Shown here: positions 780 through 22,007 of the stretch, in pieces | How positions within the stretch are numbered: the stretch's first letter is position 1 | Layout: every line of letters starts with the position of its first letter | Assembly: GCA_902794155.1 (NCBI GenBank) | Contig: CADBGN010000028.1 | Coordinates: 1 to 32,446 of the forward strand | Source of the DNA: an uncultured Bacteroidia bacterium | GTDB taxonomy: Bacteria; Bacteroidota; Bacteroidia; Bacteroidales; F082 | DNA length: 32,446 nucleotides | Reading direction: 5' to 3' | Program-made: the position numbers and the translations under genes | Notes under the pieces: generated by a model | Databases searched by the model: none | Seen by the model: the letters and a program-made list of their open reading frames with translations, nothing else | What the model was told of the DNA's origin: nothing

Positions 780-1616
780 TCATTCCTCCCTTTCCGCGCA
801 AAACACAGTCAAATCACGCAAAGTCTCAGTGATTTTCGAAGGCTCAAAACCTTCCAAAGCCTTCATGGTCTTTTCGTAATAAACGGGAAGTAGCGCTTGT
901 GCTTGTTCTACGTTCTCTCCATCGAGCATGTCATCACGCAGTTGGAAGAGGATGCCGAAATTCAGGCCAAATTCGGCGATTTGCTGGACTTGTTCGGGTG
1001 TTGCATCCACCGAAAGGGCACCGGCGACGCAGCAGGAGCGCAGCAGAGTGGCGGTTTTTCTTGTAATGATGTCCAAATATTGGGTTTGTAGGGCTGTCAC
1101 ATCGTAGCAGCCGCTTTCAATGCGGTTGCCATTGCGGCTGCCGTGGTACGACAGCTCAACAGACCCCTGCAGCAGCTCGCCTTCGCTCATGGCGGCGGCG
1201 GTGCGCAGCATCTCTTGAAGGATATTGTATTCGTTGGGTTGGCTGAGGAGGAGCATGGCCTTGGCCAAGAGATAGTCGCCAGCCAGCACCGCCGAGTGGT
1301 TGCCAAACTTAGCTTTCACCGAGGCCTTGCTTCGGCGTTGGTCGGCATCGTCCACCACGTCGTCGTGGATGAGCGTCGCGCTGTGCACCATTTCAACGAA
1401 GGTGGCTGCGCGTTGTGTCCGCTCGTTGACCTCGCCAAAGAGCTTCGCGCTGAGCAACACCAAGATGGGGCGTAGGCGTTTGCCCCGCGACTCCTGCACA
1501 TAGCGCATAATGTCGTCCATGGGCTCGGTGTCGGCCTGCATGGTTTGCTCAAAATAGATCTCAAACTGTACCAAATCGGCGGCGATGGGGGTAATGATGT
1601 TGTTCAGGTTTTTCAC
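780..1616 (-). CDS. Polyprenyl synthetase family protein (trans-isoprenyl diphosphate synthase), short form
   Basis: Condenses isopentenyl diphosphate onto an allylic diphosphate to build a polyprenyl chain, probably for menaquinone; the chain length cannot be read from sequence. The first aspartate-rich motif DDVVDD is at residues 85-90 and the second, DDMLD, at 228-232. RGKRLRP (residues 44-50) is the usual diphosphate-binding region. I chose the GTG at 1616-1614 because the family N-terminus aligns from there (KNLNNIITPIAADL). The upstream ATPase stop overlaps this start as GTGA. A minus-strand TACTTTTG directly before the GTG could make the transcript nearly leaderless. The protein is 278 aa against about 320 aa for typical members. 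The region after the second DDxxD motif looks shortened, but the C-terminus ends naturally in a charged tail. Confidence 0.88.
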   Translation of the reverse strand: MKNLNNIITPIAADLVQFEIYFEQTMQADTEPMDDIMRYVQESRGKRLRPILVLLSAKLFGEVNERTQRAATFVEMVHSATLIHDDVVDDADQRRSKASVKAKFGNHSAVLAGDYLLAKAMLLLSQPNEYNILQEMLRTAAAMSEGELLQGSVELSYHGSRNGNRIESGCYDVTALQTQYLDIITRKTATLLRSCCVAGALSVDATPEQVQQIAEFGLNFGILFQLRDDMLDGENVEQAQALLPVYYEKTMKALEGFEPSKITETLRDLTVFCAEREE

Positions 1617-2905
1617 GAGGCAAAAGTATGAAAATTTGTTTGATTCAATAGCCAATCTGTGGCAGCCATTACATGGATCTCTCCTTGCTCCGTGGAGATG
1701 GTTTTTTCTGTATCTAAAGTAATCAAGGTCATACGGTTACACCCCAAGGCCTTTGATGCATCTTTCAGCCCTTTTATTTCTCGCTTTTCTGTTTTTGGGT
1801 TGGAGATGTTATACGACACTTGGATTATTTCTTGCACATTGCCATCTTTTGCTATCACAAAATCCACTTGGCTTTCACGGTCTTTGTAATAGAACACGTC
1901 TGTATAGTCCGATTTTGTGCGCCTTAAGAGTTCTACCAAAACGATATTCTCAAGTCTCCAGCCTAAATTGTCTGGAGCGAGAGTCCCATCTTTGTCAGAT
2001 GCGAATGCCGTGTCAACAACATAGACCTTTTCGTTCAATACCCTTTCGGCGCTTTTGTATGAAAACTTGTTCACCCCGACTAATAAAAAAGCTTGCTTCA
2101 GATAGGAATAGTACTTTTCTGCCGTGTGGTCAGATATACCAAAGAGAGCGGCAACTTTAGTGGCCACAAATTCCTGGCAGTAATTATCCGACAAATAAAT
2201 GGCCATCTGTCGCAATACTTCCGCATGTTTTAGTTTGAATCGTTTCGCGATGTCTTTTTTGATGATAGAGTCCAAAAGATCTTGAATATATTCGTGCCTA
2301 TTGGTTTCGTTGAATAGTTCTGGAAACCCTCCATATCTCATATACTCTTCTAAAGCCTTAATTCTTAATGCTTTGCATTTTGTTGTCATAGATATTGTAT
2401 TGACATGTTTCATCAAGCAGTATTCCGAAAAAGAAAAAGGATACAATTCTACTTTATGATGTCTGCCGGTGAGATGGGTCATCAACTCGTTGCTGAGCAG
2501 CTTGGCATTGGAGCCCGTCAAGAAGACATGCATTTTTTTTCTAAGCAAGCGGTTAACAAACAGAGGCCAACCGTCAATGTTTTGGATTTCATCAAGAAAT
2601 AGGTGTTTGAAATCACCGTAGATTCGGTATAGGGCGTCAAGTACCGTATTGAGGTCTTCGGTTTTTAACGATACCAGCCTTTCATCGTCGAAATTGACAT
2701 AGGCATAATGAATCCCAGCCTGCTGTAAAACTTTGTAACACAAAACGGATTTACCGCTTCGTCTGACTCCGATGACTACTTGTGCAAGTTTGCTGTCTAA
2801 ATGAAGTTGAGGCTCCTCATAACGGTCGCAAAGCGAAGCTAAATCTGTTTCTGACAGTTCTTCTTGCTGGTCGAGCAAGATTTCTTGAAGGGTTTGTGCG
2901 TCCAT
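1613..2905 (-). CDS. AAA family ATPase with C-terminal DUF4143 domain
   Basis: A 430-residue P-loop ATPase of the AAA_14/DUF4143 group, widespread in Bacteroidetes and of uncertain function. The Walker A motif GVRRSGKS is at residues 46-53, the Walker B motif LFLDE at 102-106, and a sensor-like LTGSN at 129-133. The C-terminal half has the DUF4143 pattern, including a hydrophobic LVELLRR and VDFVIAKDG, which resembles a PD-(D/E)XK-like core in this family. The ATG at 2905-2903 is preferred over an in-frame upstream start near 2956, because the upstream one would lie inside the promoter and repeat array. The predicted transcript starts about 16 nt before this ATG. The stop overlaps the GTG of the polyprenyl synthetase. 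Family genes are often toxin-antitoxin-like or mobile accessory genes, but that role is not shown here. Confidence 0.88.
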   Translation of the reverse strand: MDAQTLQEILLDQQEELSETDLASLCDRYEEPQLHLDSKLAQVVIGVRRSGKSVLCYKVLQQAGIHYAYVNFDDERLVSLKTEDLNTVLDALYRIYGDFKHLFLDEIQNIDGWPLFVNRLLRKKMHVFLTGSNAKLLSNELMTHLTGRHHKVELYPFSFSEYCLMKHVNTISMTTKCKALRIKALEEYMRYGGFPELFNETNRHEYIQDLLDSIIKKDIAKRFKLKHAEVLRQMAIYLSDNYCQEFVATKVAALFGISDHTAEKYYSYLKQAFLLVGVNKFSYKSAERVLNEKVYVVDTAFASDKDGTLAPDNLGWRLENIVLVELLRRTKSDYTDVFYYKDRESQVDFVIAKDGNVQEIIQVSYNISNPKTEKREIKGLKDASKALGCNRMTLITLDTEKTISTEQGEIHVMAATDWLLNQTNFHTFAS

Positions 2906-2926
2906 GGCAAAGCGGTTTTTCTGCTG

Positions 2927-2956
2927 CAAAAATACATAAACTTCGATAGATGACAA
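2927..2956 (-). promoter_or_regulatory. Probable promoter of the DUF4143 ATPase gene
   Basis: On the minus strand, TTG (2956-2954) is followed after 19 nt by TATTTTTG (2934-2927), which matches the Bacteroidetes -33/-7 arrangement. The first copy of the 32-bp-spaced repeat (2938-2955) fills the spacer exactly. A protein bound to that repeat would therefore cover the promoter. Confidence 0.65.
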
Positions 2957-3051
2957 TTTTTTTTCATGTAAACTTCGATAGATGACAGGTTTTTTTCATG
3001 TAAACTTCGATAAATGGATGTTTTTTCCAAGTTAAACTTCGATATTTGATG
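2938..3051. repeat. Four direct repeats with an exact 32-bp spacing
   Basis: AAACTTCGATA starts at 2938, 2970, 3002 and 3034, a period of exactly 32 bp or about three helical turns. Copies 1 and 2 share AAACTTCGATAGATGACA, copy 3 reads AAACTTCGATAAATGGA, and copy 4 is the most degenerate. The intervening bases are T-rich (TTTTTTCATGT). The array lies upstream of and overlapping the ATPase promoter, like an operator or iteron cluster. The copies decay with distance from the promoter. Confidence 0.85.
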
Positions 3052-3053
3052 AG

Positions 3054-3086
3054 TTGTAAAAAAATGCACGATATTTGCTATTTTTG
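3054..3086 (+). promoter_or_regulatory. Probable promoter of the macroglobulin-family gene
   Basis: TTG at 3054-3056 and TATTTTTG at 3079-3086, separated by 22 nt, resemble the Bacteroidetes -33 and -7 elements. The predicted start near 3092 gives an unusually long leader of about 175 nt before the ATG at 3267. That leader contains the nested inverted repeat. Confidence 0.5.
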
Positions 3087-3100
3087 CGTTTAATAAGGGA

Positions 3101-3227
3101 TTCCCCTGCGGGGAATGGAGGTTGATCATAATTATAAAAGCGGCGGCAGATAGAGTCTGCAAACTGTAAACACTTCAAGCCGCCGCGGTATACAAAATGT
3201 GCGGGAACTCCATTCCCCGTAGGGGAA
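3101..3227. repeat. Nested inverted repeat in the macroglobulin leader
   Basis: The left arm at 3101-3120 (TTCCCCTGCGGGG then AATGGAG) is complementary to 3208-3227 (CTCCATT then CCCCGTAGGGGAA) over 20 bp, with a single position that becomes a wobble pair in RNA. Inside it, GCGGCGGC (3140-3147) pairs with GCCGCCGC (3179-3186). A third small stem, GCAGA/TCTGC (3146-3160), competes with the inner one. The outer arm is itself a small palindrome. It may be a structured 5' leader or a miniature inverted-repeat element. No coding content is seen here. Confidence 0.75.
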
Positions 3228-19496: not shown

Positions 19497-22007
19497 ATGG
19501 CAAACGAAAAACAATCAAATATTCTTCAGCAATCCAGGGATGATCAGGGTGTTGATATAAAACAGCTGATTTTTACGGCTTTGCGTTATTGGTACTTATT
19601 TGTTATCTTTGTTGTAATAGCCTTGGCCGTCGGCTTCGTCATCAACCGCTATTCGACCAAGGTTTTCCAAACCTCGGGCACATTGCTTATCAAGGAGAAT
19701 CGAGGCGTTGATGCTACGGCAATCATGACATCGTGGAGTTATGGTAGCAGCCAAAATGTCGACAATGAGATTGCCATCCTGAAGTCATATTCGCTCACCG
19801 AACGTGTCATCAAGAAGATGGGCATCGAAGTGACCTATTCTGAAAAAGGCCGTATAGCTTCTAAGGAGTTGTACAATAACTCTCCTTTTTTGGTAGATAT
19901 TGAACGTAGTGTGCCACAGGCGGTGGGTTTGGTTTATGAAATCACTTTTCTCGAGAATGGTGATTTCCGCCTCAGTGCCAAGGGTGAGGGCTATTCGAAA
20001 TACGATTTTCTGCTCTGCCAATATATCGAAAACAAATCTGAAGTCAATAACAACCTTGACGACATCATAGACTTCACTGGCGAATATAAACAAGGAGAAT
20101 GGATCGACAATGGATACAACCGCATTCGTATTACATTGAATGAAAATATTGCTCCCAAAAACCTATACAACCGCAAGTTATCGTTCTGGATTAATAGTTA
20201 CCCTGCTCTCGTTTCGCAGATGAGTAGCTTCTCCACGGCTCCCATCAGTAAGATGTCATCCGTGGTTGCTGTAACCATGAGTGGTACCAATAAAAATAAG
20301 ATTGTGGATTTTGTCAATCTTTTGATGAATGAATATGTTTCACGCGGTCTGGAGAAAAAGAATTTGGTTTCCGAGAATACCATCGAGTTTATTGACAATG
20401 AGTTGAGTGGCATTCAAGAGTCGTTGAGTCAGGCCGAGACCGAACTGAAAGATTTTCGTACCAAAAACGACCTCATGAACCTCGACCTGCAAGCTAATCA
20501 GGTGTATACCAATCTTCGTACTTTGGAGAAAGAACGTGCAGAGAAGTCAGTTAACCTCAAGATTTACAAGCGAATGCAGGATTATATCAAGGTTCAAATC
20601 GACGATCCTGAGAACTTGGCTTCGCCCAGTACGATGGGTATCAACGACCCCTTGCTCAACCAGTTGGCTCGTGACCTTGTCACATTGTCGCAGACCAAGG
20701 CCACCAAGTTGCTTACCCAGACCGAGCAACACCCTGAGATTATGAAACTCAACGAACAAATCATTACCACGAAGAGGGCTTTGCTTGAGACCATAAATAA
20801 TTTGGTTGATAATGCCCAGTTGAGTATCAATGAGATTGACCGCCGTATCGGCTCGTTGGAAGTGGAGTCGCGCCAATTGCCCGCCAAGCAACAAGAGTTG
20901 ATCAATTACCAGCGAAATTACAATTTTACCGACGACACTTATAAATATTTGATGCAGCGCCGCGCTGAAGCGCAGATTCTGCGTGCCTCCAATATGCCCG
21001 ATAACGAGATTCTTGATGAAGCGCGTTTGGAAAAGACAAGGAGAATTGCACCGCGTAATGCCATGAACTACCTGATTGCCATTATTATAGGTTTGTTGAT
21101 CCCTGCCTTGTATCTCTTCCTGAAGAACTTCTTCAACTATACAGTCACCGACCGCAAAGACGTGGAAAAACTGACCCATTATCCTATCGTTGGTCAGGTG
21201 GCACAAACCAGCAACAAAGACCCGTTGTTGGTCGTCAACAATCCCAAGTCACCAGTGTCGGAGGCATTCCGTGCCATTCGTACCAATGTTGATTTCATCA
21301 CACAGAGCAAAACGCCTTGTTGTACTCTCGTCACGGGCGATGTACAGAGCCTTGGAAAGACTTTTATCAGCATCAATTTTGCTTCTATCTACGCTCTGTA
21401 TGGAAAGAAAACGGTATTGCTCGGTTTCGATTTGCGTAAACCAAGGCTGTTCCAAGAGTTTGGCTTGAACAATAATGTTGGATTGAGCAGTTACTTGGGT
21501 AATAAGGAGTCTCTGGATGCTGTGATTCAGTCTTCTGGTAAGATTCCGACACTCGACATCATCACCAGTGGACCGATTCCGCCTAATCCTGCCGAATTAA
21601 TCGCTTCGAAAAAGTGCGACGAGTTATTTGAGGAATTGAAGAAACGCTATGATTACATTATCATCGACACGCCGCCTCTTGGCTTGGTTACCGATGCTTT
21701 GTTGCTCATGCGTCATACCGACGCCAACCTGTTCATCGTACGTCAAGGCGTGACCAACAAGAATGCTTTCGGCAGCATCATCAAGGACCTTGAAGACCGT
21801 GGCATGAAGTTCAATATTGTGGTTAATGGTCTCCAAGCGGAGAAGGGTTATGGCTATCGCTATGGTGGTAATCATTATGGTTATGGTTATGGTTATGGTT
21901 ATGGTTATGGCTATGGTTATGGCTATGGTAGCGAATATTATGGAGAGACTGAAGACGGAAGCAAGAAAAAGCATAGACATCATCACCATTCCCAAAAGAA
22001 AGATTAG
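19497..22007 (+). CDS. Wzc-like polysaccharide co-polymerase with tyrosine autokinase domain
   Basis: Inner-membrane regulator of polysaccharide chain length and export. Two membrane segments (about residues 31-52 and 523-545) flank a large periplasmic Wzz/GNVR region with coiled coils. The cytoplasmic BY-kinase domain has Walker A GDVQSLGKT at 614-622, Walker A' LLGFDLRKP at 641-649 and Walker B IIIDTPP around D724. The C-terminal tail is a tyrosine cluster, the site of autophosphorylation in this family. Here it is built from nine YG dipeptides in a row (residues 794-811), then SEYYGE and a Lys/His-rich end (KKKHRHHHH). Walker A has SLGKT where the family usually has a GxGKT/S form. Confidence 0.93.
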   Translation: MANEKQSNILQQSRDDQGVDIKQLIFTALRYWYLFVIFVVIALAVGFVINRYSTKVFQTSGTLLIKENRGVDATAIMTSWSYGSSQNVDNEIAILKSYSLTERVIKKMGIEVTYSEKGRIASKELYNNSPFLVDIERSVPQAVGLVYEITFLENGDFRLSAKGEGYSKYDFLLCQYIENKSEVNNNLDDIIDFTGEYKQGEWIDNGYNRIRITLNENIAPKNLYNRKLSFWINSYPALVSQMSSFSTAPISKMSSVVAVTMSGTNKNKIVDFVNLLMNEYVSRGLEKKNLVSENTIEFIDNELSGIQESLSQAETELKDFRTKNDLMNLDLQANQVYTNLRTLEKERAEKSVNLKIYKRMQDYIKVQIDDPENLASPSTMGINDPLLNQLARDLVTLSQTKATKLLTQTEQHPEIMKLNEQIITTKRALLETINNLVDNAQLSINEIDRRIGSLEVESRQLPAKQQELINYQRNYNFTDDTYKYLMQRRAEAQILRASNMPDNEILDEARLEKTRRIAPRNAMNYLIAIIIGLLIPALYLFLKNFFNYTVTDRKDVEKLTHYPIVGQVAQTSNKDPLLVVNNPKSPVSEAFRAIRTNVDFITQSKTPCCTLVTGDVQSLGKTFISINFASIYALYGKKTVLLGFDLRKPRLFQEFGLNNNVGLSSYLGNKESLDAVIQSSGKIPTLDIITSGPIPPNPAELIASKKCDELFEELKKRYDYIIIDTPPLGLVTDALLLMRHTDANLFIVRQGVTNKNAFGSIIKDLEDRGMKFNIVVNGLQAEKGYGYRYGGNHYGYGYGYGYGYGYGYGYGSEYYGETEDGSKKKHRHHHHSQKKD
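21876..21929 (+). repeat. Hexanucleotide microsatellite encoding (Tyr-Gly)9
   Basis: Nine consecutive TATGGT or TATGGC units in frame with the kinase tail, giving nine YG dipeptides. Seven units are identical TATGGT, so slippage could gain or lose whole YG pairs without breaking the frame. Confidence 0.95.

Follow-up and report, generated by a model that had tools for sequence, protein, structure and literature searches.

A 32-bp direct-repeat array at the promoter of a DUF4143 ATPase gene, a probable autoregulatory operator within a portable single-gene cassette

A DUF4143 ATPase gene of an uncultured Bacteroidia bacterium carries at its promoter four direct repeats with an exact period of 32 bp, which probably constitute an autoregulatory operator read by the winged helix of the ATPase itself, with repression as the probable outcome and with gene and array forming a portable single-gene cassette. 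The gene is located on the minus strand of the stretch of 32,446 nucleotides analysed here (the window), which belongs to genome G000 (3.28 Mb, 205 contigs). The comparative evidence for this reading is strong and comprises the geometry of the array, its wide occurrence in the family, the private sequence of each array, the co-variation of this sequence with the winged helix and the insertion of gene and array as a unit, all of which were computed.

As read directly from the window sequence, the 11-mer AAACTTCGATA starts at 2938, 2970, 3002 and 3034, giving four cores (2938–2948, 2970–2980, 3002–3012 and 3034–3044, minus strand) within a predicted operator array (2937..3049, minus strand) of four copies of TATCGAAGTTT(A). 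A repeat search returned a 49-nt unit with in-register spacings of 32 and 32, while Tandem Repeats Finder reported 2937–3044 with a period of 32 and a score of 151; the self-repeat score upstream of the ATPase gene, used below for the whole family, is 53. The predicted promoter of the gene (2927..2956, minus strand) contains a -33 element TTG (2956–2954) and a -7 element TATTTTTG (2934–2927), and this arrangement of TTG, 19-bp spacer and TATTTTTG matches the Bacteroidota -33/-7 promoter consensus. The description in the earlier note is borne out by direct reading and by both programs with respect to the four repeats at exact 32-bp spacing, and also with respect to the best-conserved copies lying at the promoter (copies 1 and 2, the units nearest to it, have the most sequence in common) and to the position of copy 1 between the -33 TTG and the -7 box, where it occupies the 19-bp spacer. 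The exact 11-mer occurs six times in G000, four of them in the array, and the two single copies outside it are at chance level, since the reversed 11-mer pattern used as a control also occurs twice. Two further repeats are found elsewhere in the window, namely nine TTATGG hexamers (21875–21929) within the range of an 836-aa ORF (19497–22007), which are possibly a variable coding repeat, and a 30-bp tandem repeat (617–689; 2.4 copies, 95% matches) within a short ORF.

The ATPase (1613..2905, minus strand, ATG at 2905) is a protein of 430 aa with an AAA_14 match (E 5.1e-33, 114.3 bits against a Pfam cut-off of 27) and a DUF4143 match (E 5.2e-17, 62.5 bits against a cut-off of 28.1), and its residues 34–422 are matched by the PADLOC profile PDC-S01 (E 3.8e-100). 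An AlphaFold2 model (13 sequences, mean pLDDT 85.7, pTM 0.86), together with operator co-variation, points to a winged-helix segment at residues 223–300 (2006..2239, minus strand), in which the predicted helices 228–240 and 248–255 are followed by a putative recognition helix (259–271) and by wing strands at 275–280 and 292–296. In the alignment columns of the nuclease-like motif, D348 is kept in the window group, while E is replaced by Q, and K by S, C, A or T, in 30/30 rows, so that the D ... E-x-K signature of an active PD-(D/E)XK nuclease is absent from all of them; E-x-K is kept in 28/28 rows of a second subfamily, the homologues of paralog L015.

The array sequence is specific to the gene rather than to the genome. 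Many paralogs in G000 carry upstream arrays of the same geometry and unlike sequence (e.g. TTGCAAAAAGTTGCAA, TCTCAAAAAGGTGTA, TCGAATATAATCGA and TATCGAAGTTTA), and the core of the L015 array occurs three times in the entire G000 genome, always within its own array, while TATCGAAGTTT is common to orthologues in Prevotella, Muribaculaceae and other Bacteroidales. The window gene thus has at its own promoter an array of gene-private sequence, as would be expected of an autoregulatory operator. The occurrence of TATCGAAGTTT arrays at other DUF4143 genes, for which the earlier note proposed to look, holds, among the homologues compared, for the closest orthologues only; the trait shared more widely is the spacing and position of the repeats. 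A scan of 295 genomes of the order for TCGAAGTT-N22-26-TCGAAGTT matched four, compared with 23 for the reversed control, and the three matching genomes besides G000 have a period of 30 and units unlike those of the window, as in chance matches. The exact window sequence is thus rare within the order, and it is therefore the geometry, not the sequence, that serves as the common marker. With the TCGAAGTT pair present in 4/295 genomes, the view that the array is a widespread promoter sequence or a repeat of the genome at large was rejected.

For the geometry, G000 offers 23 DUF4143 matches. Self-similarity was scored in the 250 bp upstream of each gene plus 30 bp, with at least 22 as the threshold for an array, and genes were excluded if they lacked a start methionine near Walker A or had less than 200 bp upstream, which retained 115 genes from 122 loci in the main set (21 G000 genes, 66 genes of other genomes within the family and 28 homologues of the window protein), 22 from 27 loci in further genomes and 29 from 30 in the L015 group. 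In the main set, which includes as its 66 family genes the best-scoring among the matches listed and not a random draw, 52/115 genes score at least 22 and 44/115 have a period of 31–34 bp (9/21 in G000, 19/66 among the best-scoring listed family genes and 16/28 among the homologues), compared with 19/119 and 0/119, respectively, for control promoters of other G000 genes (Fisher p 1e-16 overall and 5e-10 for the 66 best-scoring listed family genes alone). Downstream flanks of DUF4143 genes reach the threshold in 6/112 cases and the 31–34 bp period in 3/112, while dinucleotide shuffles of the upstream regions do so in 3/1370 and in none. The L015 subfamily has repeats in 28/29 genes, with a period of 32, 33, 65 or 66 bp. 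Sixteen further genomes, reached via the loci of the pattern scan described below, contain DUF4143 matches in eight, and nine of the 22 genes score at least 22, with periods of 32 (four), 33 (three), 34 and 23 (8/22 at 31–34 bp); these arrays come from Flavobacteriaceae, Aquirufa, Treponema, Solobacterium and a Lokiarchaeon (Asgard archaea). Pooled, 82 of 159 distinct genes have repeats, in a sample biased by two groups that had been selected for homology to genes with arrays, and all 82 periods (22–23, 31–34, 44, 64–66 or 75 bp) are close to whole helical turns, 68 being at 31–34 bp against 5 expected under a uniform spread.

The array geometry is a wide trait of the family, not a universal one, as about half of the members tested have no array over the threshold. 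The annotated collections hold ATPase homologues in 22 phage and 246 plasmid records, all below 60% identity, and among 12 plasmid or phage homologues chosen for taxonomic spread from 50 of these 268 records none has an array over the threshold, the nearest being L313 (score 15.5, period 33). The Calditerrivibrio gene L319 (score 37.9, period 28), with a short AACGTTGA-like unit, was not counted as an array. A palindromic operator in the array-less genes was also considered and is not supported, inverted-repeat scores of at least 12 being found in 25/79 of them compared with 22/119 controls; the plasmid and phage genes have such scores in 3/12. Two DUF4143-type ATPases are located near restriction genes, one in Treponema saccharophilum pTS1 (L314, 784–2019) between hsdR and a DNA methyltransferase gene in a restriction-modification locus, and one in Enterococcus gilvus (L315) near a restriction subunit S gene.

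A blind scan for a pair of ATCGAAGTTT copies 27–37 bp apart in a collection of 84,980 species genomes returned 50 stretches, 24 of which are from Bacteroidales or unplaced Bacteroidia and are all spaced by 32–33 bp. The array is followed immediately, in the same orientation, by an orthologous ATPase frame in 12/24 of these loci (L045 and L078 being cut by a contig end and L053 having no Walker A) versus 0/26 of the others. In the other 12 Bacteroidales loci, tblastn with seven orthologues recovered nothing beyond the first 57–78 residues in L046, residues 380–430 alone in L067, a distant paralog (25%) on the opposite strand and nothing else in L076, and no ATPase match in the remaining nine, among which L047 is uninformative on gene loss because its contig ends 200 bp behind the array. 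Such loci show that arrays commonly persist after the loss of their gene. At L342 (genome G410) the array persists, the ATPase was not found and a 967-aa ORF is present instead, while in the single record L046/L346 a second ATPase cassette interrupts the first after 57–78 residues. The array copies differ among the closely related ATPases L203, L205 and L209 (about 3 in L203 and 7 in L209), and copy number therefore seems to change fast. A phage origin was rejected, since 0/12 viral stretches with the pattern, one of them having no frame of 150 aa to which the test could be applied, have an ATPase directly behind it, and their patterns are read as chance or coding matches; L094 has a weak ATPase-profile match (E 5e-6) about 1.9 kb from the pattern, and no close relative of the ATPase was found in a peptide-pattern scan of viral contigs.

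The protein that reads the array was sought by co-variation among 30 array-bearing homologues of the window protein that reached a repeat score of 18 or more (29 of them different, as L056 and L191 are the same DNA) and, in the L015 group, among 28 of 29 rows with a score of at least 19; array-less homologues, partial proteins and the minus-strand paralogs of L046, L076 and L077 were left out. Operator similarity appears to track the winged-helix segment more than other parts of the protein. In the window group its partial rank correlation with the winged helix (223–300), given the rest, is 0.33 (0/500 permutations as high), compared with 0.01 for the AAA part (232/500), 0.05 for the N-terminus (125/500), 0.12 for the linker (34/500), 0.19 for the C-terminal part (10/500) and 0.11 for the recognition-helix stretch alone (50/500), where the permutation counts are guides and not true probabilities because related rows are treated as exchangeable. 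With the same reservation, the independent L015 group gives 0.20 for the winged helix (2/500), 0.12 for the N-terminus plus AAA part (46/500) and about 0 for the others, its best single columns being scattered across the protein and not located at the recognition helix.

A scan of all columns in the window group, made without a prior and before the structural model was built, ranks residue 259 first (0.46; next 0.34), and D259 (codon 2129..2131, minus strand) is the opening residue of the recognition helix as modelled by AlphaFold2. At least two TATCG are found upstream in 15/16 rows with D259, which fall into two separate tree clades, and in 0/14 rows without D. In the sixteenth D259 row (L197) TAGCG is present three times instead, and of the two rows with N at this position one carries three TATGG and the other five TAAGG. 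The pairing of residue and bases is not exclusive, as three TAGCG are likewise found in L204 (tyrosine) and three TAAGG in L211 (proline). The co-variation suggests that the ATPase itself reads the array to control its own gene, and together with the arrays of the orthologues and the geometry of the paralogs it favours one of the two possibilities raised in the earlier note, namely that the gene's own product reads an operator whose sites lie on one face of the helix.

The array and the gene appear to have been inserted as a unit, a portable single-gene cassette. Comparison of the junctions with relatives places the inserted segment of about 1.44 kb, comprising the ATPase coding region and the array, at about 1629..3064 (minus strand), and the last codons and stop of the ATPase (1613–1628) come from the flank, outside the insert. 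The comparison set consists of 29 stretches from the same genus that surround the orthologue of the polyprenyl-synthetase gene (30 of the 35 matches are covered as loci, one being that of the window itself); the polyprenyl-synthetase and MG2 genes, between which the insert of the window lies, are adjacent in 23/29, and a match to the ATPase is absent from all 29. An 80%-identical ATPase in G383 occupies a different place, the flanks of which are separated by 16 bp in G445 and by 32 bp in G430. In G374 this place is taken by a different DUF4143 ATPase and the array belonging to it, in G444 (the L046 record) by another ATPase that has a TTCCGAAAATTTC array and interrupts the first ATPase, in G426 by an ATPase without an array and in G410 by an array without its gene. 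Considered over L337–L348, this site (that of L191) is near-empty in G445 and G430 and contains elsewhere four different DUF4143-type ATPases, three of them with arrays; with its varied inserts in G383, G374, G444 and G426 it is therefore an insertion hot spot. Next to the cassette, the window contains an element of about 127 bp (3101–3227) with an outer inverted repeat (TTCCCC-TGC-GGGGAATGGAG / CTCCATTCCCC-GTA-GGGGAA) and an inner GCGGCGGC/GCCGCCGC stem, and this element could represent either a miniature mobile element or some small RNA. For its outer motif G000 contains 12 matches, of which two lie in the window and two, with similar spacing, at C113; a related element is present at the equivalent place in L225 and L232, and Rfam at gathering thresholds gave no match at 3101–3227.

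The sign of the regulation is suggested by the position of the arrays. A TAnnTTTG box is found near the start in 71/80 arrays of the Bacteroidota sets, and in 60 of these 71 the repeat region reaches into the -33/-7 spacer or past it, which favours repression, as do the several L015-type rows in which copies flank the -7 box on both sides, a placement typical of repression. The repeat region stops upstream of -33 in the other 11, which would equally fit activation, and an operator at which the ATPase activates its own promoter, or an array that stores inactive ATPase with transcription control as a secondary effect, is accordingly a rather unlikely reading that still carries some weight. The predicted fold, which may resemble that of STAND ATPases, proteins that switch by assembly, and the copy number that varies between close proteins such as L203 and L209 would suit it, while the majority of arrays at the spacer and the copies on both sides of -7 speak against it. 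A separate host regulator, the unlinked partner that the earlier note named as its other possibility, is improbable as the reader of the array. It is disfavoured because the paralogous promoters of one genome have no common sequence; moreover, the same array recurs across families together with orthologous ATPases, and operator similarity follows the winged helix of the ATPase.

There is equally little probability that the array serves as an end of the cassette in recombination or transposition, which the ATPase would recognise much as in Tn7, and that it is located at the promoter only incidentally. Gene and array are inserted jointly, one site is occupied by different ATPases, and the outermost copy is only 15–20 bp from the insertion boundary in the window and 9–29 bp at the G383 site, all of which would suit this explanation; however, copies of the binding site at both ends, as in Tn7-like elements, are not seen, a 3′ near-match being present in 2/48 arrays only, in both cases single and A+T-rich, the junction comparison revealed no readable target duplication or inverted ends at the window insert, and the nuclease-like motif of the window group has neither E nor K. 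Promoter duplication by slippage, without a dedicated binding protein, is highly improbable: the promoter-proximal units do contain a -33-like TTG and the copies are amplified in some rows (L209), but all 82 periods are near whole turns while the repeats of control promoters scatter, the core is conserved across families, and arrays are also present in Asgard archaea, the promoters of which differ from the bacterial type.

For the preferred reading, an autoregulatory operator, we infer the biochemical part, namely binding, cooperativity, repression, trigger and role in defence, as follows. The winged helix, which follows the AAA+ core and precedes the C-terminal PD-(D/E)XK-like domain, would read one site of 11–12 bp per 32 bp, so that successive protomers would lie on the same face of the DNA, three turns apart, with AAA+ cores able to touch. 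Occupied copy 1 would most likely block RNA polymerase, because it sits between the -33 and -7 elements, and the ATPase would stay scarce until a trigger, perhaps nucleic acid from an invader or an altered nucleotide state, releases the array and allows a burst of the putatively STAND-like ATPase. Gene and array would move jointly as a single-gene cassette, and many such cassettes could be present in one genome without cross-talk because each has its own site. It is possible, though doubtful, that the bacterial and archaeal PDC-S01/DUF4143 proteins make up a huge repertoire of mutually orthogonal modules that read themselves, cassettes of about 1.4 kb each with a private address at its own promoter, in which a STAND-like ATPase rests aligned on the DNA with a protomer every three turns, keeps its gene silent and acts as a sentinel until freed by invading DNA, and in which the pairing of winged-helix residues, above all position 259, with operator bases could be read as a recognition code. 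If these proteins are sequence-specific readers with a self-encoded address, every array-bearing gene brings its own binding site, which would make biochemistry immediately possible, provide many natural protein–operator pairs for learning the recognition code, and hint at how more than 20 paralogs coexist within one genome.

PDC-S01, the PADLOC profile of which is matched by the window ATPase, is described in PMC12988326 as an ATPase fused to the PD-(D/E)XK superfamily and as the fourth most common defence system across prokaryotes, with 10,358 occurrences in rumen genomes according to PMC13356809; it is thus reported among the most abundant candidate defence genes, most of which await validation (PMC12988326). 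The main texts of both papers make no mention of promoter, direct or tandem repeat, operator, autoregulation or winged, and no description of arrays of this kind was found in the searched literature, which covered few subscription papers; relative to this searchable literature the private array and its reading by a winged helix appear to be new. In an expression study, the Thermus thermophilus DUF4143 ATPase TT_P0211 rose 6.6-fold with a plasmid, with Argonaute required and together with genes near CRISPR arrays, a rise that fits, weakly, induction by foreign DNA. RptR, as described in PMC12255303, represses a defence island by binding three direct repeats in its promoter, and is thus similar in the defence locus and in repression via promoter direct repeats, although repression would be the expected outcome in the present case and PDC-S01 is a candidate system. 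RptR is, however, a regulator of its own, a small homodimer whose TAGCTA site is conserved (PMC12255303), whereas here the ATPase itself would be the regulator and the site differs gene by gene.

The window ATPase was also compared with SSO1545-type archaeal AAA+ proteins, with STAND/NLR ATPases (CED-4, RPP1 and Avs5) and with ORC/Cdc6. To our knowledge, the winged helices of STAND proteins are not generally known for sequence-specific reading of DNA, while ORC-type proteins read replication origins and not their own operator. Plasmid iterons are whole-turn direct repeats read, with autoregulation, by the winged helices of Rep proteins, which are not AAA_14/DUF4143 proteins, and the window array resembles them in its whole-turn direct repeats and, presumably, in its reading by a winged helix and in autoregulation.
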